Part shown: piece after piece, positions 7,660 through 37,717 of the stretch
How positions within the stretch are numbered: the stretch's first letter is position 1
Layout of the letters: each line of letters opens with the position of its first letter
Source: an uncultured bacterium
GTDB lineage: Bacteria > Zixibacteria > MSB-5A5 > CAIYYT01
Length of the DNA stretch: 37,989 nucleotides
NCBI GenBank assembly: GCA_903930455.1
Contig: CAIYYT010000186.1
Coordinates: 1-37,989 of the forward strand
Direction of reading: 5' to 3'
Notes under the pieces: model-generated
The model's database searches: none
The model's input: only the letters and a program-made list of their open reading frames with translations
What the model was told of the DNA's origin: nothing
Made by a program: the position numbers and the translations under genes

Positions 7660-8658
7660 CTATAGGATGGTTTTCAGGAGAAGATAGCTCAAAACACCGT
7701 AGATGGCCGCCCCGGGAAACGTAAGTAACCAGCCTGCCATAATGTTGCCGATGACTTTCCAACGAAGATTGCCAACACGATGCGCGACGGCAGTACCGGC
7801 AATCGAACCGGTGGCAACTTGCGTGGTCGAGGTCGGCGCCCCAAGCAGCGCGGCGGTGATAATCACAGCGCCTGCTGCACACTCGGCCGCACAACCGTCA
7901 ATCGGTTCGTGCAGGCGCGTCATTTTTGATCCCATAGTCTTGATGATGCGCCAACCACCAACGGAAGTTCCAAGCCCCATCGTGAAAGCCGAAGCCACTC
8001 GAACCCACAAAGGAATCTCAAAACTCTGAATTACGCCGGCCGATAACAGCGCCACGGTGATAATGCCCATGGCGTTTTGTGTGTCGTTCATGCCGTGTGA
8101 CAGAGCCACAAAAGCCGCTGAAGCAACCTGCAGCTTCTTGAAAACGACTGCAGTTTTACGGTAGGCAAACGGTTTGGCGAGCCAACTGAACAAGGTGATC
8201 AGCAACATTGCGATAATCAGCCCGGAAAAAGGAGAGAAAACCATCGAGATCATAATCTTGCGGAGACCCGGTTCCACGAGAACGGAAAAGTTGTAGTGAG
8301 TCGCAAAAAGAGCTACACCAATCAACCCACCCACAAGCGCATGCGTTGATGAAGATGGCAGTCCTAGAAACCAAGTTGTATATCCCCAGAGAACGGCTCC
8401 GATCACTGCGGCCAGGAGCATCGGCAACGTGACAAAATTGCTGTCGACCACGCCTTTGCCGATCGTGTAGGCGACGGCAGTGTGGAGCAAGCCGCCAACG
8501 AAGTTCAGAGTTCGAGCCATGATGATCGCCTTGCGGGGGGACATGGCGCGTGTTGCTATCGTCGTGGCAATTGCGTTGGCAGCATCATGGAAGCCGTTGA
8601 CGAAATCATACATCAACGAAGCAGCGATGATGAGAATCAGAAGAAGCTGATCAGACAT
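7660..8658 (-). CDS. pit: PiT-family low-affinity inorganic phosphate transporter
   Basis: A 332-residue inner-membrane protein that carries metal-phosphate with protons or sodium. Both halves carry the inverted PHO4 signatures: G-F-H-D-A-A-N-A-I-A near residue 22 and H-G-M-N-D-T-Q-N-A-M-G near 188. About ten hydrophobic segments are visible. The length matches short bacterial PiT proteins rather than the roughly 500-residue E. coli PitA. Its start overlaps the end of the upstream DUF47 gene by 8 bases, so the two are translationally coupled. This DUF47-Pit pairing is widespread, and the DUF47 protein is thought to regulate or assist the transporter. The cluster lies directly downstream of pst-phoU, so a low-affinity system is placed beside a high-affinity one. 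Confidence 0.93.
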   Translation of the reverse strand: MSDQLLLILIIAASLMYDFVNGFHDAANAIATTIATRAMSPRKAIIMARTLNFVGGLLHTAVAYTIGKGVVDSNFVTLPMLLAAVIGAVLWGYTTWFLGLPSSSTHALVGGLIGVALFATHYNFSVLVEPGLRKIMISMVFSPFSGLIIAMLLITLFSWLAKPFAYRKTAVVFKKLQVASAAFVALSHGMNDTQNAMGIITVALLSAGVIQSFEIPLWVRVASAFTMGLGTSVGGWRIIKTMGSKMTRLHEPIDGCAAECAAGAVIITAALLGAPTSTTQVATGSIAGTAVAHRVGNLRWKVIGNIMAGWLLTFPGAAIYGVLSYLLLKTIL

Positions 8659-9406
8659 TCTCGGCTACCAACCGTCTCAGAGTACCGGTCAGTTCGGTGC
8701 AGGCGTCAATTGAGCGCTCGAGTTCTTCATAGACCTGCCGCAGAATAAAGAACACAGCGACGTGACGGGTGTACTCGACATTGGCGTGGATAATGGGAAG
8801 CAGTTCGGCAACGCTACTGGACCCGGTGACGTCTTGGATGCGCTCTTCCAGACTGATGCGGTCGTGGCGGATTTCCTGAAAACGGCGTCGCAAACCTCCG
8901 TGATAAATCTCGTCAGCTTGTGTCTCCAGCCGATCGACGGCGCGGAAATATGGTTCAATGCGGCGATCGTGCGGCAACGACTTGACCGCCTTGGCGATCT
9001 CTTCGCAGGCATGATGAATGATCGGCGCCATTTCCCGCATCTCTTTGTCGCTGGTGGGAAAGTCATAGACCACATAGCGGTTGGCGGCATGGTTGACGTG
9101 CTTCATGATGCGGAAGGCATCGTCGTTAAACTGGCTGATTTCGGAACGGTCAAAGGGGGGCTGCTGGGATCGGTTGAGCAGGTCCTCAATCGATTCGTTA
9201 ATGCGATTGCAGCGGGTCAGACAGGTTTCGATCTTTCTACTGATGACCGGGCGCTCACTGACGGGAGCATCAAATAGCTCGACCAACATGAAACTTGCGT
9301 CCACCAGATTATCCACGGTTTCGTCAAAGAGCTTGTAGAACTCCTTATCGCGGGGCGGAAGGAGCCGAATATTCTTCACTTTTTTGAGAAAATCTAACAC
9401 ACCCAT
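8651..9406 (-). CDS. DUF47 family PhoU-like accessory protein of Pit
   Basis: A 251-residue, largely helical soluble protein of the DUF47 (PhoU_div, TIGR00153-like) family. Features are an N-terminal L-P-P-R-D-K-E-F-Y-K-L-F-D-E segment, repeated acidic helices with E/D-x-x-x-D spacing as in PhoU metal sites, and H-x-x-N-x-A-A-N in the centre. Family members are encoded next to Pit transporters and probably control phosphate or polyphosphate handling. The gene overlaps pit by 8 bases. The ribosome binding site is weak (AAGGCAG), and translation starts about 130 bases downstream of the promoter at 9544-9571. Confidence 0.88.
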   Translation of the reverse strand: MGVLDFLKKVKNIRLLPPRDKEFYKLFDETVDNLVDASFMLVELFDAPVSERPVISRKIETCLTRCNRINESIEDLLNRSQQPPFDRSEISQFNDDAFRIMKHVNHAANRYVVYDFPTSDKEMREMAPIIHHACEEIAKAVKSLPHDRRIEPYFRAVDRLETQADEIYHGGLRRRFQEIRHDRISLEERIQDVTGSSSVAELLPIIHANVEYTRHVAVFFILRQVYEELERSIDACTELTGTLRRLVAENV

Positions 9407-9818: not shown

Positions 9819-10481
9819 TCAATACGATTTGGAGCCATGACGGATAATTTCGCCGTCGACCATGTAAATCACGTCTTCGGCGATGTTGGTCGTGTGGTCG
9901 GCGATGCGTTCGAGGTTGCGTGAGACTGCGAGCATCTGAATCAGTGTGTCCATCTTGTCGGGATTCCGGCGGATATGTTGCTGCACTCGTTCATACATGC
10001 TGCGGTTGATGGCGTCAACTTCGTCGTCCGCCGCCAACACCGTATGCGCCAGCTTGGAGTCGAGATTAACAAGTGAATCGAGTGCCGTGTGTAACATCGC
10101 TTGCACTTTCTGCGACATCTCCGGGAAATCGTAAGGGCTTTCCACGCGTTCCTGTTTGGCGATGGAGGCAGCTCGCTCGGCAATGTTGGCGGAAAGATCA
10201 CCGATGCGCTCCAGATCATTGTTGATCTTGAGAACCGCGATGATAAAGCGGAGATCAATTGCGACCGGTTGGTGCAGCGCCAGCACCTTGAGACAATCTT
10301 CTTCCACCTCTACTTCCATGTTATCGATTTCGATGTCGGTTTCAACTACCCGCCGCGCCAGTTTGTCGTCGCGCTCTCCAAGCGCTTTGACAGCCAGCCG
10401 CAAATCTTCCTCGACCAAGGCGCCGAGCGCAAGAATCTTACGCTTGAGCCGGTCAATCTCTCGCTGTAAATGCTGAGCCAT
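9819..10481 (-). CDS. phoU: Phosphate signalling protein PhoU
   Basis: A 220-residue all-helical protein built of two PhoU repeats (about residues 10-100 and 110-210). It carries the metal-binding acidic motifs D-I-E-I-D-N-M-E-V-E-V-E-E and D-D-E-V-D-A-I-N-R-S-M and the conserved R-I-G-D-L-S-A-N-I-A-E and R-I-A-D-H-T-T-N-I-A-E segments. PhoU links the Pst transporter to PhoR, restraining the Pho response when phosphate is plentiful, and affects persistence and polyphosphate. Its ATG follows AGAGGA and lies 24 bases after pstB. It is the last gene of the pst operon. Confidence 0.95.
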   Translation of the reverse strand: MAQHLQREIDRLKRKILALGALVEEDLRLAVKALGERDDKLARRVVETDIEIDNMEVEVEEDCLKVLALHQPVAIDLRFIIAVLKINNDLERIGDLSANIAERAASIAKQERVESPYDFPEMSQKVQAMLHTALDSLVNLDSKLAHTVLAADDEVDAINRSMYERVQQHIRRNPDKMDTLIQMLAVSRNLERIADHTTNIAEDVIYMVDGEIIRHGSKSY

Positions 10482-10505: not shown

Positions 10506-11330
10506 TCATCCGAAGCGGCCGGTGACATAGTCTTCGGTCTGCTTTTTATCCGGTTTGGTGAATATCTTCGGCGTTTCGCCAAACTCCACCATATAGCCTT
10601 CATAAAAAAAGGCCGTATAGTCAGAAATACGCGCCGCCTGCTGCATGTTGTGAGTCACAATCACGATTGTGTATTGGCGTTTGAGTTCGGCGATCAAATC
10701 TTCAATCTTGGCGGTAGATATCGGATCGAGGGCGGAGGCGGGCTCATCCATCAGCAACACTTCGGGGCGAACTGCCAGTGCCCGCGCAATACAAAGCCGC
10801 TGTTGCTGGCCGCCGGAGAGCATGTAGGCGCTGTTATTAAGCTTGTCTTTCACCTCGTCCCACAAGAATGCTCTCTTGAGCGTGTCCTCAACCGCTTCGC
10901 CGATGATCTGTTTGTCTTTGATACCGTTGACTCGCAGGCCATACGCGACATTGTCGAAGATCGATTTCGGGAAAGGATTCGATTTCTGGAAGACCATACC
11001 GACGCGCGTTCTCACGGTCGATACATCCCTGATTTCCCGATAGATATCAACGCCATCGAGTTTGACAGTCCCTTCCCTGCGCGTGCCGGGGATCGTTTCG
11101 TTCATGCGATTCAGCGCCCGCAGGAAGGTCGACTTACCGCAACCGGATGGCCCGATAAACGCGGTCACGCGGTTCTCCTCGATGTTCAGAGACACCTGGT
11201 GCAGCGCCTGAGATTGTCCGTAGAAGAAGTTGAGATCATGTATCTCGATTTTCACTCTGCCGGCTTGTCGCGGGGGATGCACGCGCGACGCGGCTTCAAG
11301 TTTATTGGCTTCTAATTCAGCATCAAACAC
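10506..11330 (-). CDS. pstB: Phosphate ABC transporter ATP-binding protein PstB
   Basis: A 274-residue ATPase that powers high-affinity phosphate uptake at the cytoplasmic face of PstA and PstC. Walker A is GPSGCGKST at 60-68, the ABC signature LSGGQ at 172-176, Walker B LLMDEP at 193-198, and the H-loop V-T-H-N-M-Q-Q-A follows. The stretch R-A-L-N-R-M-N-E after Walker A and the closing Y-V-T-G-R-F-G are typical of PstB. The first 25 residues precede the core and are slightly longer than usual. Its start overlaps pstA by 8 bases. Confidence 0.97.
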
Positions 11331-12273
11331 TTATTCGCCTCGACCGTATCTTCGATCTAATCAGGATTGCTACGAAGTTCAAGAGAAACGTCAACACCAG
11401 CAGCACCAAGACGGTTCCATAGAGAATTGGTTTAGTCTTCTCGATATCCGGTGACTGCGTGGACATCACATATACGTGATAGCCAAGTTCCATAAACTGA
11501 TCATTAAGCGCCTTGGGAAGATAAGGCAAATAGTAGGCCGCACCAGTAAACATAATCGGCGCGACTTCACCGGCGCCTCGGCTAATTGCCAGAATCGCTC
11601 CGGTGAAAATTCCGGGTAGCGCCTGTGGAATGATTATGCGGATGATGGTTTGCAGTTTGGTGGCGCCTAGGGCATAACTTGCGTCTTTTAGCTCGCGCGG
11701 AATGGCGCGCAAGGCTTCCTCTGTGGAGACAATTACTACCGGTAGGGTCAGCAGCGCAAGCGTCAAGGCCGCCCAGATAATCGCCGGTTGTCCCCAGACC
11801 GGTTTCTCCGCACCCAGAAGAGTGGTATCAATGCCGTGGCCGATAAATCCGATGAAGAATCCGAGTCCGAATAGCCCGAACACAATTGAAGGTACACCGG
11901 CCAGATTGTTGATCGCGGTGCGAATTATTCGGGTGGTGCGCGAAGTGGGACTGGTGTATTCGTGAAGATAAACTGCCGTCAGTACGCCTACCGGTACACC
12001 GGTAAGTACCATCAGCAGCACTAGAAAGACAGTGCCGAAGATCGCTGGGAAAATGCCACCGGCTTCCATTCCGTGCTCCGGGGGTTTGCTCAAAAATTCC
12101 CAGCTGATAGTGCCCAATCCGCCGTGTAGGACATTTAACAGGATCACCGCCAGCATCGCAATGATGATGATGACCGCAGAAAGAGTTAGGCCGCGGGGGA
12201 TCAGACCGCTGCTTTTGGGTTTGAATTCGAGTGCTGGACCCGTCGATGCTGCGATGGCCGTGTGATTTGTCAT
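11323..12273 (-). CDS. pstA: Phosphate ABC transporter permease PstA
   Basis: A 316-residue inner-membrane permease with about six hydrophobic segments, starting near residue 28. The cytoplasmic EAA-type coupling loop (about residues 195-225) reads [21 protein letters not shown]. The conserved [15 protein letters not shown] segment identifies the Pst permeases. ATGA overlap with the end of pstC and 8-base overlap with pstB indicate tight translational coupling. Confidence 0.96.
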
Positions 12274-13229
12274 GATAGCTTGCCCTGAAATCTGATTTTG
12301 AGACGCTGAAGCACAATTTCGCCTCCGAGATTCACGAGAAACGTGAACAGGAAGAGCACCGTCCCAATAAAGAAAAGTACGTTGTAGTGGGCACTGCCGA
12401 AGACAACCTCCGCCAATTCAGCCGCAATTGTCGCCGAGAGTGTGCGCGCCGAATCAACAAAACTGGCTGAGACAATCGCCGCGTTGCCGGATGCCATGAG
12501 GACAATCATCGTCTCACCGATTGCTCTGCCGAATCCAAGTACGATACCGGCGGCAATACCGGGAAGCGCCGCGGGGAGAACCATCGTAAATGAGACCTGC
12601 CAAGGGTTCGCGCCCAAGGCGCGGGCCGCATCACGAAGGGAAGTCGGCACCGAATTCATGGCGTCCTCGGCGACGGTGAAGATGATCGGAATAATTGCCA
12701 GACCGAGCGCAATGCCTGCGTTGAGTATGTTAAGGCGATAGGTCAGACCAAGTGCATTTTGCAGGAACGTGGCCAACACGATCAAGGCGAAGAATCCGAG
12801 CACGACCGACGGAATGCCGGCCAGTAGTTCAATCACAGGTTTGATAATTTCCCGCATCCGCTTGGAGGCAAACTCAGCCGAATAGATCGCCGCCCCGATA
12901 GCCAATGGCGCTGCAAAAAGCATGGCAATGATTGCCGCCTTGATCGTTCCTAAAAACAGTGGCCAGAGCGAATACTTTGGATGATCGGAATTGGGTTGCC
13001 AACTCCACTTCGCCGGTTTATCGGGTTGAAACTGCTGCTTGAAAGTCATCTTGTTAAGGCTGGCTTCTTTTTGAACCTCGCTGCTTGTGAAGATCGGTGT
13101 CGCTTCTTTGAAAATAAAAACGAAAATCAGCAGAATAGCGATCAGCGCGGCAAAGGCGTTCACCGCGATAAATTTCTCCCCTAGGAATTCGCGCCAGCGC
13201 GATTTGGGTTTGAACTGGTAAGGTGTCAT
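12270..13229 (-). CDS. pstC: Phosphate ABC transporter permease PstC
   Basis: A 319-residue permease that pairs with PstA to form the phosphate channel. It has a short cytoplasmic N-terminus, a first membrane segment at about residues 22-43, a roughly 50-residue periplasmic loop with Trp and Pro, and then five more hydrophobic segments. The coupling loop is D-A-M-N-S-V-P-T-S-L-R-D-A-A-R-A-L-G-A, and the preceding E-L-L-A-G-I-P-S-V-V-L-G-F-F-A motif is the PstC equivalent of that in PstA. It starts 10 bases after pstS and overlaps pstA by 4 bases. Confidence 0.95.
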   Translation of the reverse strand: MTPYQFKPKSRWREFLGEKFIAVNAFAALIAILLIFVFIFKEATPIFTSSEVQKEASLNKMTFKQQFQPDKPAKWSWQPNSDHPKYSLWPLFLGTIKAAIIAMLFAAPLAIGAAIYSAEFASKRMREIIKPVIELLAGIPSVVLGFFALIVLATFLQNALGLTYRLNILNAGIALGLAIIPIIFTVAEDAMNSVPTSLRDAARALGANPWQVSFTMVLPAALPGIAAGIVLGFGRAIGETMIVLMASGNAAIVSASFVDSARTLSATIAAELAEVVFGSAHYNVLFFIGTVLFLFTFLVNLGGEIVLQRLKIRFQGKLS

Positions 13230-13239: not shown

Positions 13240-14064
13240 TCACTTTGCGCTCACCGGTACAAAGCCCGATTCGACGACGACCTTCTCCCCTTCCGACGAA
13301 AGAACCCAGTCGAGAAACTCCTTCGTTTCTCCTGTCGGTTCGCCATTCAGGAAGAAGTACAACTCGCGCGATATCGGATACGATCTATCGGAAACGGTTG
13401 CGGCGCTTGGCAACACTGCCTGCGCCGAATCGTTGACTCTGATGCCTGCGTACTTGATGGTGGTCGCCCAGGCAATACCGCCATAGCCAATTCCGTTGAC
13501 ATCGTGTGCCACGGCATGCACAACCGACGCCGTGCCCGGCAATGGTTCGCAACGTTCGGCAAAGTCTTCACCGCCGAGTATTTGCTGCTGGAAGTAGGTA
13601 TAAGTCCCGGAGTTGTTTTCGCGACCATAGAGGATGATTGGTTGGTCGGGTCCGCCGAGGTCTTTCCAATTGGTGAGGTTATCGGTATAGATCTCCCGAA
13701 GCTGTGCAAGCGTTAGATCAACAACCAGATTGCTTTTGTGGAGATAGATTGCGATGCCATCTAGCGCAACCACCAACTGATGTACTTTTACGCCTTTGGT
13801 TGTTGCGATACGAATCTCAACATCGGTCAGTGGACGAGACGATGCACAAACTCTTGTCGACCCGTTGATCAACGCCGCAATTCCTGATGATGATCCCCCG
13901 CCGGAAACCTGAATCACCGTCTGCTTGTGGCCTTTCATGTATTCCTCTGCCAAGCGCTGGCAGAGACGCACCATGGTGTCCGAACCCTTGACAGTGATTT
14001 GCCCGGCCATCACCCCTAGTGGCAAGAACAGCAGAAATGAGATTAGCGATAATAGTCTTAGCAT
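13240..14064 (-). CDS. pstS: Periplasmic phosphate-binding protein PstS
   Basis: A 274-residue exported protein. The signal peptide (residues 1-20) ends G-V-M-A before G-Q-I-T-V-K-G-S-D-T-M. The phosphate-binding loops are visible: K-G-S-D-T-M near the mature N-terminus and G-G-G-S-S-S-G-I-A-A-L, and later R-E-N-N-S-G-T-Y-T-Y-F. It captures periplasmic phosphate for PstCA. No lipobox cysteine is seen, so it should be soluble in the periplasm. The start is preceded by a distant GGATGGTGA. It heads the pst genes, 98 bases after phoR, with a candidate PHO box upstream. Confidence 0.93.
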   Translation of the reverse strand: MLRLLSLISFLLFLPLGVMAGQITVKGSDTMVRLCQRLAEEYMKGHKQTVIQVSGGGSSSGIAALINGSTRVCASSRPLTDVEIRIATTKGVKVHQLVVALDGIAIYLHKSNLVVDLTLAQLREIYTDNLTNWKDLGGPDQPIILYGRENNSGTYTYFQQQILGGEDFAERCEPLPGTASVVHAVAHDVNGIGYGGIAWATTIKYAGIRVNDSAQAVLPSAATVSDRSYPISRELYFFLNGEPTGETKEFLDWVLSSEGEKVVVESGFVPVSAK

Positions 14065-14105
14065 GAGTTGTCCGTCACCATCCTAACTCAGTAACGACCA
14101 AAGGT

Positions 14106-14144
14106 GTTAGGATTTCGTTAGGGAACTGTGAAATGTCCATTAGC
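14106..14144 (-). promoter_or_regulatory. Candidate PHO box upstream of pstS
   Basis: Read on the minus strand, CCTAAC repeats exactly 11 bp apart (plus-strand GTTAGG at 14106-14111 and 14117-14122), with a near copy (plus ATTAGC, 14139-14144) exactly 22 bp further upstream. Direct repeats on an 11-bp period are how OmpR/PhoB-type regulators bind as tandem dimers. The same half-site and phasing occur before phoB. PhoB binding is inferred. Confidence 0.6.
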
Positions 14145-14165
14145 TTTAACCCTGACGAAATCCTA
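14108..14165. repeat. Inverted repeat between phoR and pstS
   Basis: Arms at 14108-14123 and 14150-14165 match at 15 of 16 positions as an inverted repeat, with a 26-base loop. One arm includes the phoR stop codon, and the other includes most of the pstS PHO box. It may be two facing regulator sites or an RNA hairpin that attenuates read-through from phoR into pstS. Confidence 0.6.
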
Positions 14166-15548
14166 TCTCAACGGAAGACTAATAGTAAAGGTACTCCCCT
14201 CGCCCATACGGCTATCGACCGATATCGTGCCGCCGTGTGCCAAAACAATGTGTTTGGCGATTGCCAGCCCCAACCCGGTTCCTCCCTCCGCGCGACTGCG
14301 GGCTTTGTCGACACGGTAAAACCGTTCAAACAAGCGCGGCAGATGCTCCGGGGCAATGCCGATACCGTGGTCACGCACGGTGATGGAAATGGCGTTGCTA
14401 TCTTGGATAGCGGCAATCTCAATGGCGCTTCCGGAATCGTTATACTTGGCGGCATTATCAATAAGATTCACAACAGCTTGTTCAAGTAATGGCGGATTGA
14501 TGCGGGCAATAAGATCAGCAGGACATGACAAGGAAACGTGAATGTTTTTTGCCGTAATCTGGGTTTCGCAGACACTGACGGCAGCCGTCAGTAGTCCCTT
14601 GAGCGCGGCTTGCTCAAGTAAAATCTCCCCTCGCTCAACACCTTGCTCGATGCGCGAAAGCTTCAGGAGATCTTCGATGATGGCGTTAAGACGGTTGGCT
14701 TGCTTAGCGGCAATCTTCAGAAAGCGTTCGGCGTCGTCGGGATCGCGAAATGCGCCGTCGAGCAGAGTCTCAATGTAACCCTTGATCGAAGTGATCGGTG
14801 TTTTCAACTCATGTGAGACATTAGCCACAAAATCGCGTCGTACCTGCTCAAGCTTGTGCAAACGGGTAATGTCATTCAGAACGATGAGCGCACCGATGGT
14901 GTTGCGCGACGCATTCCGCAGCATTGTGCCGGTTACTTGTAGATAGCGATCTTCGGTTCCGCTCAGAGTAATGTCGCCTTCAACAGTCGTACCGAGATTG
15001 AGAGTTTTCGTCACCAATCGATGCAGGTCACTGTTGCGAATGGTCTCCTGCAGAGTGCGTCCGATGACGTTGGCATTTTCGAGGCCGAGCAACCGGACAG
15101 CCGCCTGATTGATACTGATCAGTTTTTCGTCGGCATCGACGACAAGGACGCCCTCTATCATGCTTGATACAATCGTGTCATGCTCTTGCCGTCGCTGTGC
15201 AAGTTCGGCTGCACGTTCTTGAAGTTGTCGTGCTACATCATTAACAGTCACCGCCAGCGAGGCGATGCTGTCATCGGAGGTCGCCTTCGCGCGTCCGCTA
15301 TCGTCAATCTGCGTGATTCGCTCAACACCCGCCCTGATCTGCATCAATGATGTCGCCAGTCTCCGGGTAAATAGATAGGTGGCAACAACTGCTACAACTG
15401 CCAGAATCACGACGATGACGATAAAACTCGTGGACAAAACCTGTGATGAAAGGACCGTGATGGAAAGTACTGTCAAGAAGAGCAAGACCACCGGCAGCAG
15501 CAAAGGAAAATATATACGCCAGATGCTACGGGTGTGATTCACTCTCAC
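14163..15548 (-). CDS. phoR: Phosphate-regulon sensor histidine kinase PhoR
   Basis: A 461-residue membrane kinase. Two hydrophobic segments (about 12-32 and 36-58) are joined by almost no periplasmic loop, as in PhoR, which senses phosphate through the Pst-PhoU complex rather than directly. A HAMP-like linker (about 60-115), a PAS domain (about 125-230), HisKA with phosphoacceptor His246 in S-H-E-L-K-T-P, and a HATPase domain follow (N-box D-N-A-A-K-Y, G1 D-H-G-I-G-I, G2 G-T-G-L-G-L). Translation starts at GTG 15548, overlapping the phoB stop as GTGA. It probably phosphorylates the adjacent PhoB when phosphate is scarce. Confidence 0.92.
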   Translation of the reverse strand: MRVNHTRSIWRIYFPLLLPVVLLFLTVLSITVLSSQVLSTSFIVIVVILAVVAVVATYLFTRRLATSLMQIRAGVERITQIDDSGRAKATSDDSIASLAVTVNDVARQLQERAAELAQRRQEHDTIVSSMIEGVLVVDADEKLISINQAAVRLLGLENANVIGRTLQETIRNSDLHRLVTKTLNLGTTVEGDITLSGTEDRYLQVTGTMLRNASRNTIGALIVLNDITRLHKLEQVRRDFVANVSHELKTPITSIKGYIETLLDGAFRDPDDAERFLKIAAKQANRLNAIIEDLLKLSRIEQGVERGEILLEQAALKGLLTAAVSVCETQITAKNIHVSLSCPADLIARINPPLLEQAVVNLIDNAAKYNDSGSAIEIAAIQDSNAISITVRDHGIGIAPEHLPRLFERFYRVDKARSRAEGGTGLGLAIAKHIVLAHGGTISVDSRMGEGSTFTISLPLR

Positions 15549-16231
15549 TCCGAAAGTTTGTAGCCGACACCGCGGACGGTTTCGACATACTTGCCGGCAT
15601 CACCAAGTTTGCGTCGCAAACCAACAATTTGCACATCGACGGCGCGGTCGGTGACGATGGTTTCCTCGCCTCGGATTTCGTTGACTATCTGATAGCGACT
15701 AAATACCCAGCCGGGATGCCTCACCAACAGATGCAGGATCAGAAATTCAGTCAGAGTAAGATCGACAACTTCTCCTGCCACTGTGACTTCGTGCCGACCC
15801 GGATCGATGACAATATCATGCACCCGGACGGTGGCTGTCTCTTTGACATTAGCCTTTGCTTTGCGCCGTAGGACCGTCCGCACGCGAGCAATCAGCACTT
15901 TGGGAGTAAAGGGTTTGGCGAGGTAGTCATCGGCGCCGATTTCCAGACCGGTGATGATGTCACTGTCTTCGCTCTTGGCAGTCAACATGATCACGGGGAT
16001 GTGCTGTGTTTTCGAATCGTTTTTGAGGATTTTGCAAACTTCCAGACCGTCAATGCCGGGGAGCATCAGATCGAGGACGATCAAATCGGGGAGACTGCTA
16101 CGGGCGGTTTTGAGACCGACTTCCCCGGTAGCAGCGCCGCTGACGCGATAACCTTCTTTGGCAAGGTTGTACTTCACTAGTTCAAGAATGTCTTCTTCAT
16201 CCTCGACGACTAAGATGCTTTCTTTTGGCAT
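15545..16231 (-). CDS. phoB: Phosphate-regulon response regulator PhoB
   Basis: A 229-residue OmpR/PhoB-family regulator. The ATG at 16231 starts the canonical receiver (P-K-E-S-I-L-V-V-E-D-E-E-D); an upstream in-frame extension would cover the promoter and is not credible. The acidic pocket E10/D11, phosphoacceptor Asp54, Thr84 and Lys106 are all present. The C-terminal winged helix (about 130-227) includes L-T-L-T-E-F-L-I-L, D-R-A-V-D-V-Q-I-V-G-L-R-R-K-L and V-R-G-V-G-Y-K-L. Phosphorylated PhoB should activate pstS and its own operon through the phased half-sites at 14106-14144 and 16316-16354. It overlaps phoR by four bases. Confidence 0.93.
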   Translation of the reverse strand: MPKESILVVEDEEDILELVKYNLAKEGYRVSGAATGEVGLKTARSSLPDLIVLDLMLPGIDGLEVCKILKNDSKTQHIPVIMLTAKSEDSDIITGLEIGADDYLAKPFTPKVLIARVRTVLRRKAKANVKETATVRVHDIVIDPGRHEVTVAGEVVDLTLTEFLILHLLVRHPGWVFSRYQIVNEIRGEETIVTDRAVDVQIVGLRRKLGDAGKYVETVRGVGYKLSE

Positions 16232-16266: not shown

Positions 16267-16294
16267 AATATAGTAGTTGTACGACACAATCCAA
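16267..16294 (-). promoter_or_regulatory. phoB promoter (sigma70-like)
   Basis: On the minus strand TTGGAT (16289-16294), a 16-base spacer and TATATT (16267-16272) lie about 35 bases before the phoB start and just downstream of the phased CCTAA half-sites, an arrangement suitable for activation from upstream. Confidence 0.55.
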
Positions 16295-16315
16295 GCGGAA
16301 CCATAACTGTGGCCG

Positions 16316-16354
16316 ATTAGGTTCTCGTGATTTGTGTGTTAGGGAATCATTAGG
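16316..16354 (-). promoter_or_regulatory. Candidate PHO box upstream of phoB
   Basis: On the minus strand three half-sites CCTAAT, CCTAAC and CCTAAT (plus-strand copies at 16349-16354, 16338-16343 and 16316-16321) are separated by exactly 11 and 22 bp. They match the motif and phase before pstS. This suggests autoregulation of phoBR by PhoB. Confidence 0.6.
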
Positions 16355-16378: not shown

Positions 16379-17434
16379 TTAACAGATACGCGGCAGCTGT
16401 TCACCGGAAAGCATGTCAACGATTCGCGTAGAGCCGATGGTGCTGGTCATCAGGACAAGACCGGCATCTTCTACAGTTGTGTTGCCGATTATCGACGACG
16501 CTCGACAAACAGATTCCTTCTCGAGAATTGCCAGCGCCCGTTCGGCGTCTTTCTCCGGCACGAAAGCAACGAAGCGACCTTCGTTTGCTACGTAGAGGGG
16601 GTCAAGTCCCAGCAGTTCACAGGCGCTTCGTACCGGATCGCAGACGGCGATTGCTGTTTCAATGATGTGTATGCCTAATTTCACCTGTTGGGCGACCTCA
16701 TTTAGCGCGCTGGCTAGACCACCACGGGTCAGATCGCGCAAGCAGTGAATGTCAATACCACCTGCCAACAGTGCTTGCACGGCCGTGTGTAGCGGCGCGC
16801 AATCGCTCTCAATCGTGGTTTCAAATTGGAGTCCGGCGCGTTGCGCCATGATGGCGATGCCATGTCTGCCAATATCACCGGAGAGAATAATCGCATCCCC
16901 GGGTCGAACGCTGCCGGGGGCAACATCCAGACTGTGTTCCACGACACCGATACCGGCGGTATTGATAAATATGCCATCGCCTTTGCCCCGGTCGACGACT
17001 TTCGTATCTCCGGTGATAATTTGCACGCCAGCTTCGGCTGCAGTGTTCTTGATCGAGGCCATCACGCGTGAGAGGGTCTTAACCGGCAGACCCTCTTCAA
17101 GGATCAACCCGAGACTCAGATAGAGCGGTCGCGCGCCCGCCATTGCGAGATCATTAACCGTGCCGTTGACTGCCAAGGTGCCGATATCGCCACCGGCAAA
17201 AAAGAGCGGACTGACAACATAGGAGTCGGTTGTAAACGCCAGTTTCTGATTGCCGACTACAAAGACGCTGGCATCATGCCGTGGTTGAAGATGCACATTA
17301 TCCAACGCCGGCAGTACCACGCTCTCCAGAAGCTGGTGCATCAGTTTGCCGCCACCACCATGAGCGAGCAGAATCTGTTCGTAGTTTGCAAGGGGTGTCG
17401 GGCAGGATAAGGCGAAGTTTTTGTCGTCGGTCAT
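16379..17434 (-). CDS. hypE: Hydrogenase maturation protein HypE
   Basis: A 351-residue PurM-like ATPase. HypE dehydrates a carbamoyl group on its C-terminal cysteine to thiocyanate, which becomes the cyanide ligand of the [NiFe] iron. The required end, P-R-I-C, is intact. The N-terminal segment has [12 protein letters not shown], and [14 protein letters not shown] is the usual PurM-type nucleotide motif; D-L-T-R-G-G-L-A follows. It lies 12 bases after hypD and is the last gene of the hydrogenase cluster. Only a weak A+T hairpin (about 16364-16377) follows it before the phoB control region. Confidence 0.95.
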
Positions 17435-17446
17435 GTTGTGTTCTTT

Positions 17447-18556
17447 CTATCCCGCCCGCCTACCGGAAGCAGTAGTTCCACGATAGCGATAATAAGCGGT
17501 GCAAGCCCCCTCGGATGATACCATTGTTGCTCCGAGTGGATGCTCCGGTGTACAACGGGTGCCAAATGCCGGGCAATCATGAGGCTTCTTGATGCCCTGA
17601 AGAATCAACCCGCTGATACATTCCGGCGACTCTTCGATTTTGCGATCAGCCAGACCAAATCGCAGTTCGGCATCATACTGACGATACTCCCCACGTAACG
17701 CCAAACCGCTCTTCTTGATCTCGCCGATGCCCCGCCATTTGCGATCGACAACTTCGAACACGTCGGAGAGCAATTTCTGCGCGGGGATGTTGCCTTCACG
17801 GGTGACCACGCGGCTGTATGGATTTTCAACCTCGTAACGTCCCTGCTCAAGCTGCGTTACACACATCAGAATTCCTTGCAGAATGTCCAACGGCTCAAAG
17901 CCGGTGACGACAATTGGTGTTTTGTACTTCGCAGCAATCGGTTCATATTCATGATAGCCCATAACCGTGCAGACATGCCCCGCTGCCAGAAATCCCTGCA
18001 CCTGATTGTGCGGTGAACCGAGGATCGCCTCCATTGCGGGAGGAACCAGCACATGTGATACGAGTAGTGAGAAGTTGCGGATGCCCAGACGGTGTGCTTG
18101 ATAAGCGGCCATGCCATTTGCGGGTGCAGTTGTTTCAAAACCGACGGCGAAGAAGACAACCTGTTTGTCGGGATTCTCGGTCGCCAGCTTCAGCGCATCC
18201 AGTGGCGAGTAGACAATGCGCACATCACCACCGGCTGCTTTGACGGCAAGCAGGTCGTGATGTAAACCGGGAACACGCAACATGTCGCCGAATGAACAGA
18301 AGATAACGTTCGGGTTGGATGCTATCTCGATAGCCTTTTCGATCAATTCCAAAGCCGTCACGCAGACGGGACAGCCGGGGCCATGTACCAACGTGATTTC
18401 AGAAGGCAATAGTTCATCAATGCCGAACCGGACGATAGCGTGAGTCTGCCCACCGCAGATTTCCATAATCGTCCATGGTCGGGTTACGACAGCCTTGATA
18501 CACTCTGCCAGTTCGTGGGCCGCCTTGGCATCGCGGTACTCATCGACAAACTTCAA
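17447..18556 (-). CDS. hypD: Hydrogenase maturation protein HypD
   Basis: A 369-residue iron-sulfur protein that, with HypC, forms the scaffold where Fe(CN)2CO is assembled. The diagnostic C-G-G-Q-T-H is at 34-39, the redox cysteines in P-G-C-P-V-C at 62 and 65, and the C-terminal [4Fe-4S] region carries the motifs [11 protein letters not shown] and [12 protein letters not shown]. Its ATG overlaps the hypC stop (ATGA), so expression is coupled to its physical partner HypC. Confidence 0.96.
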
Positions 18557-18807
18557 TTGGCTTCTCCGAGCTCACTGCCAAGCTCTTCCATCTCGCGCAG
18601 ATATTCGAATACTTTTTGCGCTTCTTCTTCATCGATGATGTTCAGTGCAAAGCCGACGTGGATAATGACATAGTCACCGAGTTTGACCTCGGGAACGTAG
18701 CAGAGGTTGACCTCTTTGATAACGCCGCCAAAATCCACTTTGCCCATGCGGAAGACCGGATCATCCCCCGCGATGCTGATAACTTTACCGGGTATGGCCA
18801 AACACAT
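18553..18807 (-). CDS. hypC: Hydrogenase maturation chaperone HypC
   Basis: An 84-residue HypC/HupF protein. The essential N-terminal cysteine is present (M-C-L-A-I-P-G-K-V). It transfers the iron-cyanide-CO moiety from HypD to the hydrogenase large subunit. The middle G-x-[11 protein letters not shown] and [11 protein letters not shown] segments are family-typical, and [10 protein letters not shown] closes the fold. It starts five bases after hypF and overlaps hypD by four. Confidence 0.95.
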
Positions 18808-18812
18808 AGCTC

Positions 18813-21122
18813 TTACTTTCCTATCCTGGCGCGGGCAGCCGCGACAACTTGACCGAGAGCAATACCGCCGTCATTAGGAGGTACGCGCTGATGCCAATAC
18901 GGATGATAACCCTCGACGCGCAGGCGCGTTATGGTACGCTCGGTGAGGTATTTGTTTTGAAAACAGCCGCCGCTCAACGCGACTTTCGGTTGCTCCATCC
19001 GCTTGGCCACGGCGACTATCATCTCGACGAGCGTATTATGAAACCGTGCCGCGACTGTTGATGTTGGTACACCGCGATCTCTATCAGCCAGCAACAATGC
19101 GATCGTCGGTTGCCAGTCGAGGACTAATATAGAGTCATTCTCGCCAATTTCAAAGGGATATGCTTCCACGGTCTCGGTGCCACCTATCGCAAACTCAAGC
19201 GCCATCGCCGCTTCACCTTCATAGGTCGCCTTGTGACACAAGTCGAGCAGCGAGGCGACAGCATCAAAAAACCGTCCAGCGCTGGAGGTTGGAATCGTGT
19301 TGACTTTGTTGACTAGCATGCCACGCAGGACCGTCAGTTCATTTGCGGTGAACATGTCGCCGGCGAGCGATTGCATATCAAAACACTTCTCGCCATACAT
19401 CTGATACAGCAACCCCAACGCGCTCCGTCGAGGTTCCCGAACGGCGGCATCACCACCGGCAAGGGGAAACTGCCGCAGATAACCGACGCGCTTAAATGAG
19501 GTTTCGTCAACGAGCAGAAATTCTCCCCCCCAGATTGTGCCATCGACGCCCAGACCGGTACCATCCCACGATATCCCGAGCACCGGCGGCGCAACTTCAT
19601 TCTCCGCCATACAACTGAGTATGTGTGCGTAATGGTGCTGTACTGCCACAACCGGCGTCTTGAACTCTCGCGCCCTCTTGGTCGAAAGATAATCCGGGTG
19701 CAGATCGCAGCCGACGACCTCCGGAACAATTTCGTAGAGCCGCGTCAGGTCGTCTAGTACGTTCTCAAACGCGCGGTAAGCTTCCGCCGTTTCGAGATCG
19801 CCGATGTGCTGGCTGATAAAAACATCACAGCCGACTGAGACCGCGACACTGTTCTTAAGATGCGCACCGACGGCGACCGTTTGCGGCAGCGACTGGGCAA
19901 GGGTCACCGGCAATGGCGCATAGCCACGTGCCCGGCGAGTCACCTGCTCGCGTCCGGCCACGACACGTACGATGGAATCGTCAACGTGTCGTTTGATCGG
20001 ACGATCATGCACGAGAAACAGGTCGGCAATCCCATGCAACCGTCGCAGCGCTTCTTGCTCGTCGATGCAGATCGGCTCTTCGGCGAGATTGGCGCTGGTG
20101 GCCACGATTGGAAAGCCGAGCTCGCGCATCAGCAAGTGGTGCAGCGGCGTGTAAGGCAACATAACTCCCAAATAGGGATTGCCGGGGGCGACCGCCGTGG
20201 CGATCTGGGATACGTCTTGCCGTCTGCGCAACAGCACAATCGGCGATTCGATGGAAGTCAGTGAACGTTGTTCAGTATCATCGGCAAAACAATCATCAAG
20301 AACTTGCTGAAGAGTCGGATACATTAGTGCCAGCGGTTTGTTGGTGCGACGTTTCCGCTTTCGCAAAGTGGCAACCGCTTGCTCACTGCGAGCGTCGACG
20401 ATCAGATGAAAACCACCGAGTCCTTTGACAGCGACAACCATGCCGGCTTTGATCGCCTCCGCAGTTGCAAGTAAAGCATCATGCCTGCGGGCGAGAATGC
20501 TGCCGCTTTCATCCCATAACTCAAGCTGTGGGCCGCATTCAGGACAGGCGTTCGGCTGAGCATGGAAACGCCGATCGCGCGGGTTTTCATACTCATCTCG
20601 ACAGCGGGGGCACATCGCGAACTTCTTCATGGTCGTGTTGACACGATCGTACGGCAGCGATTCAATGATTGTGTATCGCGGTCCGCAGTTGGTGCAGTTG
20701 GTGAACGGGTAGAGATAACGCCGGTTGGTGGAATCGAAAATGTCTTGCAGGCACTCGGGACAGGTGGCGATATCGGGCAGGACATACGCCGTTTTGCTGC
20801 CGCCGTCGGAGCTTGTGCGGATCTTAAACGATTCCTGGCCAAGCGGGTCGAGGTGAGAGACTTCGCAACTCTGAATGAAGGCACGCGGTGGCAACTCTCG
20901 CGGCAGTCGCGCGAGAAACTGATCTAGTGCTTGCTGTGCTTGCTCGATGTCGATGACAACGCCCTGTGCGGTGTTGGTAACATAACCTCGGAGTTTCAAC
21001 TCGCCGGCGAGGCGGTAGATGTACGGGCGGAAGCCAACTCCCTGCACGGCGCCGCGAATCACCAGTCGTAACCGGTGCGTTCCATCCTGATGGTCGTGCT
21101 GCGGAGTCGAAGAATTCTTCAT
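18813..21122 (-). CDS. hypF: Carbamoyltransferase HypF
   Basis: About 769 residues from ATG 21122; an in-frame TTG at 21155 would add 11 residues but would lie across the -10 box. HypF makes the carbamoyl donor for HypE from carbamoyl phosphate and ATP. In order: an acylphosphatase domain (R-G-A-V-Q-G-V-G-F-R-P near residue 24), a zinc region with repeated C-x2-C pairs (C-P-E-C, C-T-N-C-G-P-R-Y, C-P-R-C, C-P-E-C-G-P), a YrdC-like ATP site, and a Kae1-like domain with V-Q-H-H-Y-A-H-I-L. No Shine-Dalgarno precedes the ATG, while TATAAT ends six bases before it. It follows the endopeptidase gene by 42 bases, so it may be read both from the operon and on its own. Confidence 0.94.
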   Translation of the reverse strand: MKNSSTPQHDHQDGTHRLRLVIRGAVQGVGFRPYIYRLAGELKLRGYVTNTAQGVVIDIEQAQQALDQFLARLPRELPPRAFIQSCEVSHLDPLGQESFKIRTSSDGGSKTAYVLPDIATCPECLQDIFDSTNRRYLYPFTNCTNCGPRYTIIESLPYDRVNTTMKKFAMCPRCRDEYENPRDRRFHAQPNACPECGPQLELWDESGSILARRHDALLATAEAIKAGMVVAVKGLGGFHLIVDARSEQAVATLRKRKRRTNKPLALMYPTLQQVLDDCFADDTEQRSLTSIESPIVLLRRRQDVSQIATAVAPGNPYLGVMLPYTPLHHLLMRELGFPIVATSANLAEEPICIDEQEALRRLHGIADLFLVHDRPIKRHVDDSIVRVVAGREQVTRRARGYAPLPVTLAQSLPQTVAVGAHLKNSVAVSVGCDVFISQHIGDLETAEAYRAFENVLDDLTRLYEIVPEVVGCDLHPDYLSTKRAREFKTPVVAVQHHYAHILSCMAENEVAPPVLGISWDGTGLGVDGTIWGGEFLLVDETSFKRVGYLRQFPLAGGDAAVREPRRSALGLLYQMYGEKCFDMQSLAGDMFTANELTVLRGMLVNKVNTIPTSSAGRFFDAVASLLDLCHKATYEGEAAMALEFAIGGTETVEAYPFEIGENDSILVLDWQPTIALLLADRDRGVPTSTVAARFHNTLVEMIVAVAKRMEQPKVALSGGCFQNKYLTERTITRLRVEGYHPYWHQRVPPNDGGIALGQVVAAARARIGK

Positions 21123-21128
21123 GCCAAG

Positions 21129-21155
21129 ATTATACGGCGTCTGCCGTCGAAGCAA
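21129..21155 (-). promoter_or_regulatory. Internal promoter before hypF, possibly leaderless
   Basis: A perfect TATAAT on the minus strand (21129-21134) ends six bases before the hypF ATG. The best -35 candidate is weak (TTGCTT, 21150-21155, 15-base spacer). Initiation seven bases after the -10 box would fall on the A of the ATG. Confidence 0.4.
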
Positions 21156-21164
21156 GCAGACGAC

Positions 21165-21671
21165 TTAGCTGCAGTGTGACGATCCCATTTGTTTCAGATC
21201 GTTTGTTATCCGCTCGACCACCGTGTCAACGGAGACCTGTACTGCTTCTGTCAGGCCGATACCGGCGGAGAAATCGGTCCCCTCAATACCGTAAACCAAA
21301 AGCCGCGTCGGCAGCTTGCCTAGCGCCCGCCCCAGTTCCACCGCTTCGGCGACACTGAAAGCGTGGGTGGAGTAATTAAAGAAAGCACTGGGAATCGGTG
21401 AATTGCCGGCGTCAAAAAAATGCACGGCGCCCGGTGAGGACTCTGATTGTGCGGCATCGATGATAATGACAAGATCAGCTTCGTGGAAATGCTCCAGCAG
21501 TGAGGCCCCTTCGCCGGAATGCAGCAGAACTCGGACTTGCGGCAGATTGAGCTTGTCAATCCGCCGCGCCACTTCGGGACCAGCGCCATCATCGCGCCGA
21601 TATTCATTGCCGACGCCGATAATCAGCGCCAGACTTCGCTTGTTGACATCACTTTCCCCACCCTCCGGCAC
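21165..21671 (-). CDS. [NiFe]-hydrogenase large-subunit maturation endopeptidase
   Basis: A 168-residue HybD/HycI/HoxW-type protease that removes the C-terminal tail of the large subunit after nickel insertion. The N-terminal fold signature I-I-G-V-G-N-E-Y-R-R-D-D-G is clear. The nickel-sensing residues correspond to Glu23, Asp72 (V-I-I-I-D-A-A) and His103 (S-T-H-A-F-S). It starts with GTG at 21671, eight bases after GGGAG within the end of the large-subunit gene. Its position directly after the large subunit identifies its substrate. Confidence 0.9.
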   Translation of the reverse strand: MPEGGESDVNKRSLALIIGVGNEYRRDDGAGPEVARRIDKLNLPQVRVLLHSGEGASLLEHFHEADLVIIIDAAQSESSPGAVHFFDAGNSPIPSAFFNYSTHAFSVAEAVELGRALGKLPTRLLVYGIEGTDFSAGIGLTEAVQVSVDTVVERITNDLKQMGSSHCS

Positions 21672-21676
21672 AAAAC

Positions 21677-22969
21677 TTACTCCCGCTCGATATGGAGCTT
21701 CAGGAAGTGAGTTGCGCAGGATATGCAGGGGTCATAGTTGCGAACCGCCTGCTCGCATTGCCAGGTCAGTTTTTCGTCGGACAGCTTGAGATGCTGCGGT
21801 ACGAATTCGGCGAGATCGGCTTCGATCGTCTTCTGGTTCTGGGACGTTGGCGGTACAATCTTGGCGTCCAAGATGATACCTTTGTCATCCAAGCGGTACC
21901 GATGATAGCAAATTCCGCGCGGAGCTTCCGAGCAACCGCAGCCAACTGCGGCACGTGGATTGGCCTCCACGTAAGGCTTGTCCGGTCTTTCGTATTCTTT
22001 GATTATCCGTAGCGCCTCTTCACAGGCCCAAACCGTTTCCACACTGCGAACAATGATGCTCTTGAACGGATTGTTGCACGTTTTGCCCAATCCGGCTTCC
22101 TTCGCACATTTCTGAGCCAGCGGCGTCAAGCGATCATAGTTGAGACTATAGCGCGCCAGCGGTCCGACAAAATAGGCGCCGCGAGCCTTAAGAACGGAAT
22201 GCAGCGCGTGTGAGTGCTTGGCATGCTCTTCGGCAAAGTGCTGCTCGTAGTCTTTGATTTCAATATCCAGTCCCTTGTTCGAAACCAAGTGACCTTCAAA
22301 AAGCGGATACTCGCTCGGATGCCGCAACGCGACAAACTCGTAATCGCGCTCGAAATCGGGGAATTTCAACGTGGCGACAAACTTGACCGTCTCGACCGCT
22401 GCGTCCCGCGCCCATTTCAGCTCTTCCGTAATCGCCTTAAACTTCGCTTTGTCGGGAGTTTTGTAGAATCCGCCGACGCGAACATTAATCGGATGAATTT
22501 CGCGACCACCGACAATGGTCATCAGGTCATTGCCGACTTTTTTCAGACGCAGGCCACGCTGAACGGCATCGGGATAATCCTTGGCCAACTGGATCGCGTC
22601 CTCGTAGCCCAGGAAATCGGGAGCGTGCAGCATGTAAACGTGCAGCGCGTGACTCTCGATCCACTCGCCGCAGTAGATCAGACGGCGCAGCGCGCGAAGC
22701 TGGCCATCGACCTTCATACCGAACGCCTGCTCCATGGCGGTGACGGCGCTCATCTGGTAGGCAATCGGGCAAATACCGCAAATTCGGGCGCTGATATCGG
22801 GGGCTTCTTTGTATTCGCGGCCACGCAGGAAAGCCTCGAAGAAGCGAGGAGGTTCGAAGATCTTGAATTTGACGTCTTCAACCTTGTTGTCTTTTATCTT
22901 CACGTAAAGCGATCCCTCGCCCTCGACGCGGGCCAGGTAATCGACTTTAATCAATCTATTGCCTTTCAT
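21677..22969 (-). CDS. Group 3b-type [NiFe]-hydrogenase large (alpha) subunit
   Basis: About 430 residues. It holds the NiFe active site that interconverts H2 with protons and electrons. The nickel ligands are visible: R-I-C-G-I-C near residues 62-67 and D-P-C-I-S-C-A-T-H near the end. Nine residues follow that histidine, a cleavable tail for the adjacent endopeptidase. The gene set (beta, gamma, delta, alpha) and the sequence style match the cytoplasmic NADP-linked sulfhydrogenases of group 3b; there is no Tat signal. The ATG at 22969 follows GAGGGTGA and overlaps the end of the delta gene by 14 bases; an in-frame GTG nine bases earlier is less likely. Confidence 0.93.
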
Positions 22970-23738
22970 GCGCGTCACCCTCTTTCCTGAATGTGTCCGA
23001 ACAGGCGTTGAAGCTGCGATAGGCGCGTATCAATTGTTCGTCTGTGACGCCGGATTTATGGAATTGCTCACTTAGCGAAATGGTGTTGGCGGTCTCTTTC
23101 GGACCGAAGCAACCATAGCAACCGCGGTCAAACGACGGACAAATTGCGCCGCAACCGGCATGCGTCACCGGCCCCATACAGGGGGTTCCCTGCGCAACCA
23201 TGACACAGGGAGTTCCTTTCAGCTTGCATTCCACGCAGACACCGTAAGCCGGTGTATTCGGTTTGCGACCGTTGAGGAAGGCGCTGAGCACTTCCACTAG
23301 CTGCATTTTGTTGATAGGACAGCCGCGCAGTTCGAAATCGACGAAGACGTGGTAGCCGATTGGTGTCGACTTGTGCAGCGTCTCAATGTATTGCGGGGAA
23401 GCATAAACATAGTTGATGAAATCCGTGACGTTGGCGAAATTGCGCAACGCCTGGATGCCGCCGGCCGTAGCGCAGGCGCCGATAGTGATTAGATACTTCG
23501 ACATCTTGCGCACCTTCTGGATGCGCTCGGCGTCATGGGAGGTCGTAATCGAACCTTCCACGAGCGACAGGTCGTAGGGACCCTTGGACAATGCGCGAGT
23601 CGCTTCCGGGAAGTTGGCGATTTCGACAGCGCCGGCAACCGCCAGCAATTCATCTTCGCAGTCGAGCAGGCTTAGCTGGCAACCGTCACAGGAAGCGAAT
23701 TTCCATACTGCAAGTTTCGGTTTAGCATTCGTAGGCAT
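22956..23738 (-). CDS. [NiFe]-hydrogenase small (delta) subunit
   Basis: About 260 residues carrying the iron-sulfur chain from the active site. The proximal-cluster motif is F-A-S-C-D-G-C-Q-L near residue 17, with G-A-C-A-T-A-G-G and R-G-C-P-I-N completing it. The C-terminal cysteine-rich region ([27 protein letters not shown]) should hold two further [4Fe-4S] clusters. There is no Tat leader, so it is cytoplasmic. The ATG at 23738 follows GGGAG and comes one base after the gamma stop codon; an upstream in-frame TTG is rejected. Confidence 0.93.
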
Positions 23739-23739
23739 T

Positions 23740-24612
23740 TCAGATCTCCCGCCGTGCAAGAAGTTCGATAACCTGATCGTAAGTATAGACCGGGCCGTCT
23801 TTGCAAATGAAGGTCGGGCCGTACTGGCAATGTCCGCACAGGCCGATTCCGCATTTCATATTGCGTTCCATCGAGACGTAGATGCGGTCAAGAGTCATTT
23901 CTTTCTTGATCAAGTCCATGGCCACGAAACGCATCATGATTTCCGGCCCGCAGATCATGGCGACGGTATTATCAGGATCGAGGACAAGTTTCTTGAGCAG
24001 AGTTGTTACCACGCCGACGTTGCCGTGCCACTCAGAGGAAGCACGATCAACGGTCACATGGACTTCCATATCGAAACGGGCGCGCCATTTCTCCAACTCC
24101 GCGCGGTAGAGCATATCCTCCGGCGTGCGTGTGCCATAAAGCAAAAACACTTTGCCATACTTGCGACGCTCAGCCAGTACCTGATATATGACCGGACGTA
24201 GCGGCGCCAGACCGATACCGCCGGCGATAATCAGGACGTCGTTGCCCTTGGCGGCCTCAACCGGCCAGCAACTTCCGAACGGTCCGCGCACTCCGATTGT
24301 GTCCCCAACTTTCAGCTTCGCCATTGCTTTGGTAGCCGTACCGACCGCGCGAATTGTGTGAATCAGCGGATTCGGCGAGGTTGGATCGCCGCTGATTGAT
24401 ATCGCGGCCTCTCCCACACCGAATTTGTATAGCATGTTGAATTGCCCGGCTCCGAAACGATGTTCTCCCGTACCACTCGCAGGCTTGAGCTCCAGCGTAT
24501 AAGTGTCAAGAGTCTCCTTGCGATATTTTTCCACCCGAAAGATTTCCGGCACCATCGGGCTAAGAACAGCCCTTCGGCCGGGCGCCGCTTTTGAATCAAA
24601 CACGTGTTCCAT
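23740..24612 (-). CDS. Hydrogenase gamma subunit, FAD/NAD(P)-binding ferredoxin reductase type
   Basis: About 290 residues. This is the diaphorase part that exchanges electrons with NAD(P)H. It resembles the gamma subunit of Pyrococcus sulfhydrogenase and dihydroorotate dehydrogenase electron-transfer subunits. An FAD-binding barrel comes first (F-G-A-G-Q-F-N, then H-T-I-R-A-V-G), then a nucleotide domain with [13 protein letters not shown], and a C-terminal [2Fe-2S] site C-G-I-G-L-C-G-H-C with a fourth Cys in F-I-C-K-D-G-P. The start is uncertain: ATG 24612 overlaps the upstream gene by 17 bases and has no close ribosome site, and an upstream TTG at 24657 is also open. Confidence 0.9.
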
Positions 24613-25057
24613 AGATGTCCAACAGTTGTATCCTTGTAGCTGAGAGCCGCTCGGCAATGATTCTGACGAACCGCTTCAGCATTTCGTATCCCAAGTTATG
24701 ATCTTCTTCTAATTTGGCGCGCATGCATTTACCGTCAAAACGGATGGCGCGAGTCAGATCGACTGCGCGAGCATCGAAGTGTGAACGATAGGGGGGCAGC
24801 AACCATGACCAACCCGTTACATCGCCGTCCTCCAACGTCTCTACGGTAATCGCACCGTGCGTCGGGCTAAACAGTTCCAGCGCTACTTTGCCCTGACGAA
24901 TGATGAAAAACTCAGAGGCTTCCTGTCCCTCGCGAGAAATGAAGTCGCCAGCCTCAAACTTGACGTTTGAAGCGCAACCCACGAGCAGCTTAAGCAGTTC
25001 CGGCGGCATGCCCTTGAAGAACGGGTGCTCGGCCAGAATCGGTTCCAATGTCTCCAT
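24596..25057 (-). CDS. HoxI-like cyclic nucleotide-binding-fold protein of the hydrogenase cluster
   Basis: A 153-residue protein consisting of a single Crp/cNMP-binding domain ([33 protein letters not shown]) followed by a C-terminal helix. There is no helix-turn-helix domain, so it is not a transcription factor by itself. Where cAMP-binding proteins have the R-x-S/T-A-x-V phosphate cassette, this sequence has [11 protein letters not shown], suggesting altered ligand use. Homologous folds occur in NAD-reducing hydrogenase complexes (HoxI of Cupriavidus), where the protein is a complex subunit linked to NADPH. Its place between beta and gamma suggests a similar role. AAGGAG precedes the ATG. 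Confidence 0.82.
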
Positions 25058-25068
25058 CCTAATGCTCC

Positions 25069-26226: not shown

Positions 26227-26424
26227 ATAAACTCTTTCCTCAAGTAATGAAGACCCTGCGGCGTTCACTGGTTGATGTCTTGTCAACTGGACCGTGCATA
26301 CTCTTCTTTCAAGATCGGCATCGACTACGAGAAATCACAGATATTATTCATCGTCTATCCTGATATTAGGACGCTGTCCTGCAGAAATCCATCCACCTGC
26401 CAGACGGCCTCCGAGATCGCCATG

Positions 26425-28372: not shown

Positions 28373-28422
28373 GGTCGGTGTGTTGACGTCTCAAATACCC
28401 GGTCTGCTTTTTGGAGGATATC

Positions 28423-37666: not shown

Positions 37667-37671
37667 TGGAA

Positions 37672-37695
37672 GGTCGCGACTAAAGTCGCTCCTAC
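37672..37695 (-). repeat. REP-like palindrome with GTAG head
   Basis: On the minus strand the unit begins GTAG, followed by GAGCGACT, a TT loop and AGTCGC, then GACC. GTAG- or GGAG-headed palindromes of this form are the known REP elements moved by RAYT (TnpA-REP) proteins in other bacteria. It ends six bases before the SBBP gene start. No RAYT gene is in the window. Confidence 0.7.
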
Positions 37696-37717
37696 GATCT
37701 TCGCCATTAATGGTAGC

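Follow-up and report, generated by a model that had tools for sequence, protein, structure and literature searches.

The OmpR/PhoB family is very large, and good descriptions of PHO boxes, to our knowledge, come from only a few phyla. In E. coli, the box is a direct repeat with an 11-bp period, CTGTCAT-N4-CTGTCAT. It lies about 10 bp before the -10 element (PMC1906773), and in the E. coli complex Arg201 of PhoB makes a specific guanine contact (PMC3973317). The box of SphR, the cyanobacterial PhoB, is comprised of tandem CTTAACCT repeats with 3-bp linkers. The PhoP box of Streptomyces coelicolor consists of 11-nt direct repeat units of GTTCACC (PMC4415409).

A tandem array, which is very probably a PHO box and the operator for the PhoB encoded by the next gene, precedes phoB in a DNA stretch of 37,989 nucleotides (the window) from an uncultured bacterium. 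The phoB gene is on the minus strand, with its ATG at 16231. On the plus strand, ATTAGG (16316-16321), GTTAGG (16338-16343) and ATTAGG (16349-16354) begin 22 and 11 bp apart, just as the original prediction had placed them; in the direction of the gene they read CCTAAT, CCTAAC and CCTAAT. These three half-sites belong to a larger array than had been claimed. The site, CCTAATgattcCCTAACacacaAATCACgagaaCCTAAT in gene direction, has four 11-bp slots, CCTAAT-CCTAAC-(AATCAC)-CCTAAT, the third of which is degenerate and fills the gap, and it is located about 85 bp 5' of phoB. The prediction concerned the phoB site alone, which is real, and missed the array of the pst operon. The sole other exact copy of the perfect pair in the window (14106-14122) lies before pstS, in a site that reads GCTAATggacaTTTCACagttcCCTAACgaaatCCTAAC in gene direction and is 41 bp 5' of the start codon. 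The PhoB-PhoR pair is encoded next to the arrays, and the pst genes and phoU are linked to it (Table 1). TIGR02154 is the best-scoring model for PhoB, at a score below the curated cut-off of 296 bits. Both arrays are retained in a genome of the same genus (G001) despite changed flanking sequence, and the degenerate third slot of the phoB array keeps ATCAC there.

Table 1. Genes, array slots and promoter-like elements of the pho/pst locus (window coordinates; slots are given in gene direction)
Feature	Position	Strand	Evidence or state in G001
phoB, PhoB-type response regulator, recognition helix VTDRAVDVQIVGLRRKL	15545..16231	-	TIGR02154 1.7e-71, 240 bits
phoR/pnpS sensor histidine kinase	14163..15548	-	NF046044 PnpS 406 bits, above cut-off
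pstS, phosphate-binding protein	13240..14064	-	TIGR02136 223 bits, above cut-off
pstC, phosphate ABC permease	12270..13229	-	operon position; matched at 71-80% in the pst loci of most relatives
pstA, phosphate ABC permease	11323..12273	-	operon position; matches in relatives' pst loci
pstB, phosphate ABC ATPase	10506..11330	-	TIGR00972 404 bits, above cut-off
phoU	9819..10481	-	TIGR02135 212 bits, above cut-off
DUF47/TIGR00153-like protein and PiT-type phosphate permease	7660..9406	-	weak TIGR00153 and partial PitA matches, both below cut-off
phoB array slot 1, CCTAAT	16349..16354	-	CCTAAC in G001
phoB array slot 2, CCTAAC	16338..16343	-	TCTAAC in G001
phoB array slot 3, AATCAC, degenerate	16327..16332	-	11-bp register; three-slot search, <=2 mismatches
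phoB array slot 4, CCTAAT	16316..16321	-	decayed to TCTGAT in G001
-10 element of PhoB-dependent phoB promoter, TATGGT (probable)	16300..16305	-	16 nt after slot 4 start
TTGGAT-N16-TATATT promoter-like sequence	16267..16294	-	TTGGAT 16294-16289, TATATT 16272-16267
pstS array slot 1, GCTAAT	14139..14144	-	
pstS array slot 2, TTTCAC, degenerate	14128..14133	-	
pstS array slot 3, CCTAAC	14117..14122	-	CCTAGC in G001
pstS array slot 4, CCTAAC	14106..14111	-	CCTAAC also in G001
Weak promoter-like GTTACT at the phylum offset from pstS slot 4 (putative)	14090..14095	-	GTTACTGAGTTAGGATGG retained in G001

The search of the window for phased half-sites found no good array in front of the DUF47-PiT gene pair. 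The phoB array starts about 25 bp 3' of hypE. Directly 5' of phoB and on the same strand (16379-26286), the translations suggest hypE-hypD-hypC-hypF, a protease and a NiFe-hydrogenase cluster with large and small, diaphorase-like and iron-sulfur subunits. Proteins with dockerin-like C-terminal repeats (CGDxNxDGxVDISDVVYLIxYIFSGG), which recur in the genome, are encoded at 28411-29397 and 36029-37768; C-termini of this type suggest Zixibacteria or a group close to it.

The whole genome (3.77 Mb) contains three exact pairs. Two belong to phoB and pstS, and the third is on a prophage-like contig, between terminase-like and portal-like genes. A looser search for three slots with at most two mismatches returned 15 matches, four of which are the phoB and pstS arrays, and added the array TCTAACgaagaACTAACattcaTCACATtcaccGCTAAC, located on another contig (C54) 92 bp 5' of a phosphate-selective porin O/P gene (Porin_O_P, PF07396, E = 2e-10). 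The reversed-pattern control of this search gave 46 matches against the 15, so that the search by itself is not significant by number and its weight is in the genes hit. Two-slot matches on contigs C25, C48, C49, C68 and C235, whose surroundings are phage, tRNA-like or unrelated sequence, were set aside, and a match on C4, 388 bp 5' of an unknown protein, was not counted. Two of these contigs, C49 and C68, carry nearly unchanged copies of TCTAACACCTGTCTAACAGAACAGGCCGTAAC, one of them beside a tRNA-like 3' end, and C235 has a similar sequence; an integrated element may have its attachment sites here. Porin_5 was searched for in this genome and is absent from it.

The phylum set consists of 133 genomes, 72 of which have a close PhoB. 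In the 188 bp before phoB at 56 PhoR-linked loci, the window's own being left out, 58 sense BCTAAY half-sites are present (16.4 +/- 4.0 in shuffles). Fifteen sense pairs are spaced at 11 bp (shuffle mean 0.03, maximum 1) and six at 22 bp; the antisense and reversed words form no 11-bp pairs in these regions. In some relatives the triplet is perfect, as in CCTAACcgattCCTAACacgatCCTAAT. A phylum-wide three-slot search by sequence only gave 26 matches compared with about 11 for the reversed control, and CCTAACN4TCCTAACA gave 19 compared with 3. Most of the phylum-wide matches are less than 300 bp 5' of a gene and in the correct orientation. The genes concerned are pstS, phoB, Porin_5 (PF16930), a second porin type, TonB/CarboxypepD_reg receptors, an Na/Pi cotransporter (PF02690), a DUF1648 protein and one protein that matched no Pfam family. 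In many relatives the best array belongs to a porin gene between phoR and pstS. The original prediction had advised searching the genome and its relatives for the motif. Such pairs, with the same orientation and 11-bp period and a constant distance to a promoter-like element, precede phoB, pstS, porins and the Na/Pi cotransporter, which strongly supports the PHO-box reading. In the genome itself and in the phylum, the arrays stand before phosphate-regulon genes and rarely elsewhere; their period, orientation, spacing, conservation and target genes are direct observations. Three genomes, all from one genus, have CTAAY arrays before the DUF1648 protein, and two genomes have them before the Pfam-less protein; both proteins are candidate new members of the phosphate regulon.

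Alignment of 57 promoters on the last two slots revealed four phased slots and a separate GTTTnAT element. GTTnnAT, with at least 4 of 5 letters matched, is present at one fixed offset from the last half-site in 31 of 60 promoters, compared with at most 4 promoters at any other offset and at most 9 in shuffles. Most of the signal comes from promoters after phoR (28/45), and 3 of 15 promoters before phoB contribute to it. This -10-like hexamer begins 16 nt downstream of the first base of the last half-site, a geometry near that of E. coli, and in the porin promoter on C54 GTTCTAT occupies this position. TATGGT (16305-16300) is the likely -10 element of phoB because the fixed phylum-wide offset points to it; G001 has TATGCT in its place. 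The TTGGAT-N16-TATATT sequence, originally predicted to be the phoB promoter, is indeed present and is kept as TTGGCT-N16-TATATT in G001. Its TATATT begins 49 nt downstream of the first base of slot 4, the last half-site. Since GTTnnAT at its fixed distance marks the spacing of PhoB-activated promoters, TTGGAT-N16-TATATT probably lies outside the PhoB-dependent promoter, and it is possibly a PhoB-independent basal promoter.

The PhoB recognition helix is strikingly conserved in the phylum and reads VTDRSVDVQIVGLRKKL in most genomes. When it is aligned with the helix of E. coli PhoB, which we take to be VEDRTVDVHIRRLRKAL, H198, R200 and R201 are replaced by Q, V and G in the PhoB of the window, and half-sites free of guanine would fit the loss of Arg201. 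Among the genomes with Gly or Ser at position 201, 34 of 44 have strict BCTAAY pairs in the promoters covered; the other 10 have no strict pair in the regions covered, partly as regions are missing. In none of the 12 genomes with Asn at this position do the promoters covered contain a strict BCTAAY pair. Nine of the ten Asn genomes with the region covered have CTTAAC-type pairs after phoR, and the tenth has CTTAAC-N5-CCTAAC. The association of helix type with box type (Fisher p 1e-6) is not independent evidence because the Asn type is one clade and represents one change on the tree. A simple rule by which the base follows from residue 201 does not hold throughout, as HIAGLR genomes have Gly and yet CTTAAC boxes, and so does the second PhoB (HFVGLR) of another relative. 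The correspondence of Gly with CCTAAC, and of Asn in the sister clade with CTTAAC, is suggestive of a specificity switch, a lead from one phylogenetic event and no proof. A possible, though somewhat doubtful, reading is that PhoB changed its DNA word within the phylum: CCTAAC would be the word of proteins with Gly or Ser at 201, CTTAAC that of proteins with Asn (and of some with His198), and the regulon would have moved along, making this a natural switch by one or two helix residues. The paired change in helix and half-site lends itself to a concrete test of which residues determine specificity in the OmpR/PhoB family. Two genomes each have two PhoB paralogues that differ in the helix, one with QIVGLR and one with QxANLR. 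CCTAACACTTTCTTAAC precedes the QIVGLR gene, and the QxANLR paralogue has no such box. Two dialects of phosphate regulator possibly operate in one cell.

RTTAGG is a common hexamer, and its phasing could be a selection effect of scanning 38 kb. Single half-sites are indeed unenriched in the window (16, compared with 16.5 expected), and by our own estimate, which assumes equal base frequencies, about two exact pairs are expected genome-wide. Chance is nevertheless almost wholly implausible. RTTAGG-N5-RTTAGG occurs exactly twice in the window, before phoB and pstS, compared with 0.0025 per window in shuffles, none of which (n=400) reached two, and all same-strand half-site spacings of up to 60 bp are 11, 11, 22 or 33. 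Two of the three pairs in the genome precede these very genes, and the relatives show the same phasing; pair counts, helix-type counts and shuffles all contradict chance.

The array could also be the operator of another OmpR/PhoB-family regulator, for instance a WalR- or MtrA-like one, that controls the pho operon by chance. Direct repeats of about 11 bp with AT-rich half-sites are common in the family, the genome encodes a second OmpR-type match (40% identity), and the kinase, which scores best as PnpS, has a good WalK score as well. What makes this explanation very improbable is that the arrays track phoB, pst, porin and Na/Pi genes across the phylum and that clades with different recognition helices in PhoB itself have different half-sites. 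For the pstS copy, the alternative is that it is the arm of an RNA hairpin, a terminator of phoR or an attenuator, rather than an operator. In the stretch from the phoR stop to the pstS box, 16-nt arms (14108-14123 and 14150-14165) are 94% complementary around a 26-nt loop, and the 141-nt region folds with -41 kcal/mol (z -3.45). This inverted repeat is formed partly from the pstS box itself. In G001, however, the upstream arm is gone and the box stays (CCTAGCGAAATCCTAAC), and other relatives have the box without the arm. The hairpin reading, highly improbable, was rejected because the arm is not conserved within the genus.

Some points count against the PHO-box reading: the third phoB slot and the second pstS slot are poor, the -10 elements of both promoters are weak, 10 of the 44 Gly/Ser genomes show no strict pair in the regions covered, and the DUF47-PiT pair has no good array. 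According to the proposed mechanism, phosphorylated PhoB would bind in a head-to-tail row, each subunit on an 11-bp slot of its own, to the consensus half-site CCTAAC (variants B-C-T-A-A-Y), filling four slots at phoB and another four at pstS. The last slot would be at the -35 position, 16 nt before the -10-like hexamer, so that PhoB would replace the -35 element and recruit sigma and RNA polymerase as at E. coli PhoB promoters. Upon phosphate starvation, phoBR would be positively autoregulated, and pstSCAB-phoU and the outer-membrane phosphate porins would be induced. PhoB binding, activation and phosphate dependence are predicted here from sequence. The sequence of the box, its period, spacing and targets would make the phosphate regulon readable straight from metagenome-assembled genomes of a largely uncultured phylum.

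The switch is of a known kind, in a dialect of one CCTAAC per 11 bp that is found across an uncultured phylum. What marks the site as a PHO box is its period and orientation, the genes that it precedes, the cognate regulator and the geometry of the promoter; the half-site is its own. The original prediction had spoken of a box of a new lineage, and the search of open-access literature gave no account of CCTAAC as the half-site of a PHO box. As in PHO boxes generally, there are at least two repeats in the same orientation with an 11-bp period, and the box occupies the -35 region at a distance of about 10 bp from the -10 element, a feature that is weak at phoB and pstS in the window. The half-sites found, CCTAAC and CCTAAT, differ from the CTGTCAT of E. 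coli, as had been predicted, and CCTAAC is without guanine. They likewise differ from the main unit of the S. coelicolor PhoP box, although the degenerate TTTCAC and AATCAC resemble GTTCACC and the 11-nt direct repeat units are shared (PMC4415409). The arrays are like the E. coli box in their 11-bp direct repeats, their position at about -35, the box in the promoter of phoBR itself (E. coli phoBR is autoregulated) and the pst and porin targets. They are like the cyanobacterial box in having 11-bp direct repeats before pst, at least three slots and a TAAC core. In most cyanobacteria examined sphR is without a box (PMC1906773), whereas phoB here bears its own. The half-site of the window's clade is CCTAAC rather than CTTAACCT, and cyanobacterial CTTAAC differs from it by one base, the second, which is C here and T there; exactly this CTTAAC is used, mainly, by the sister clade within the phylum.
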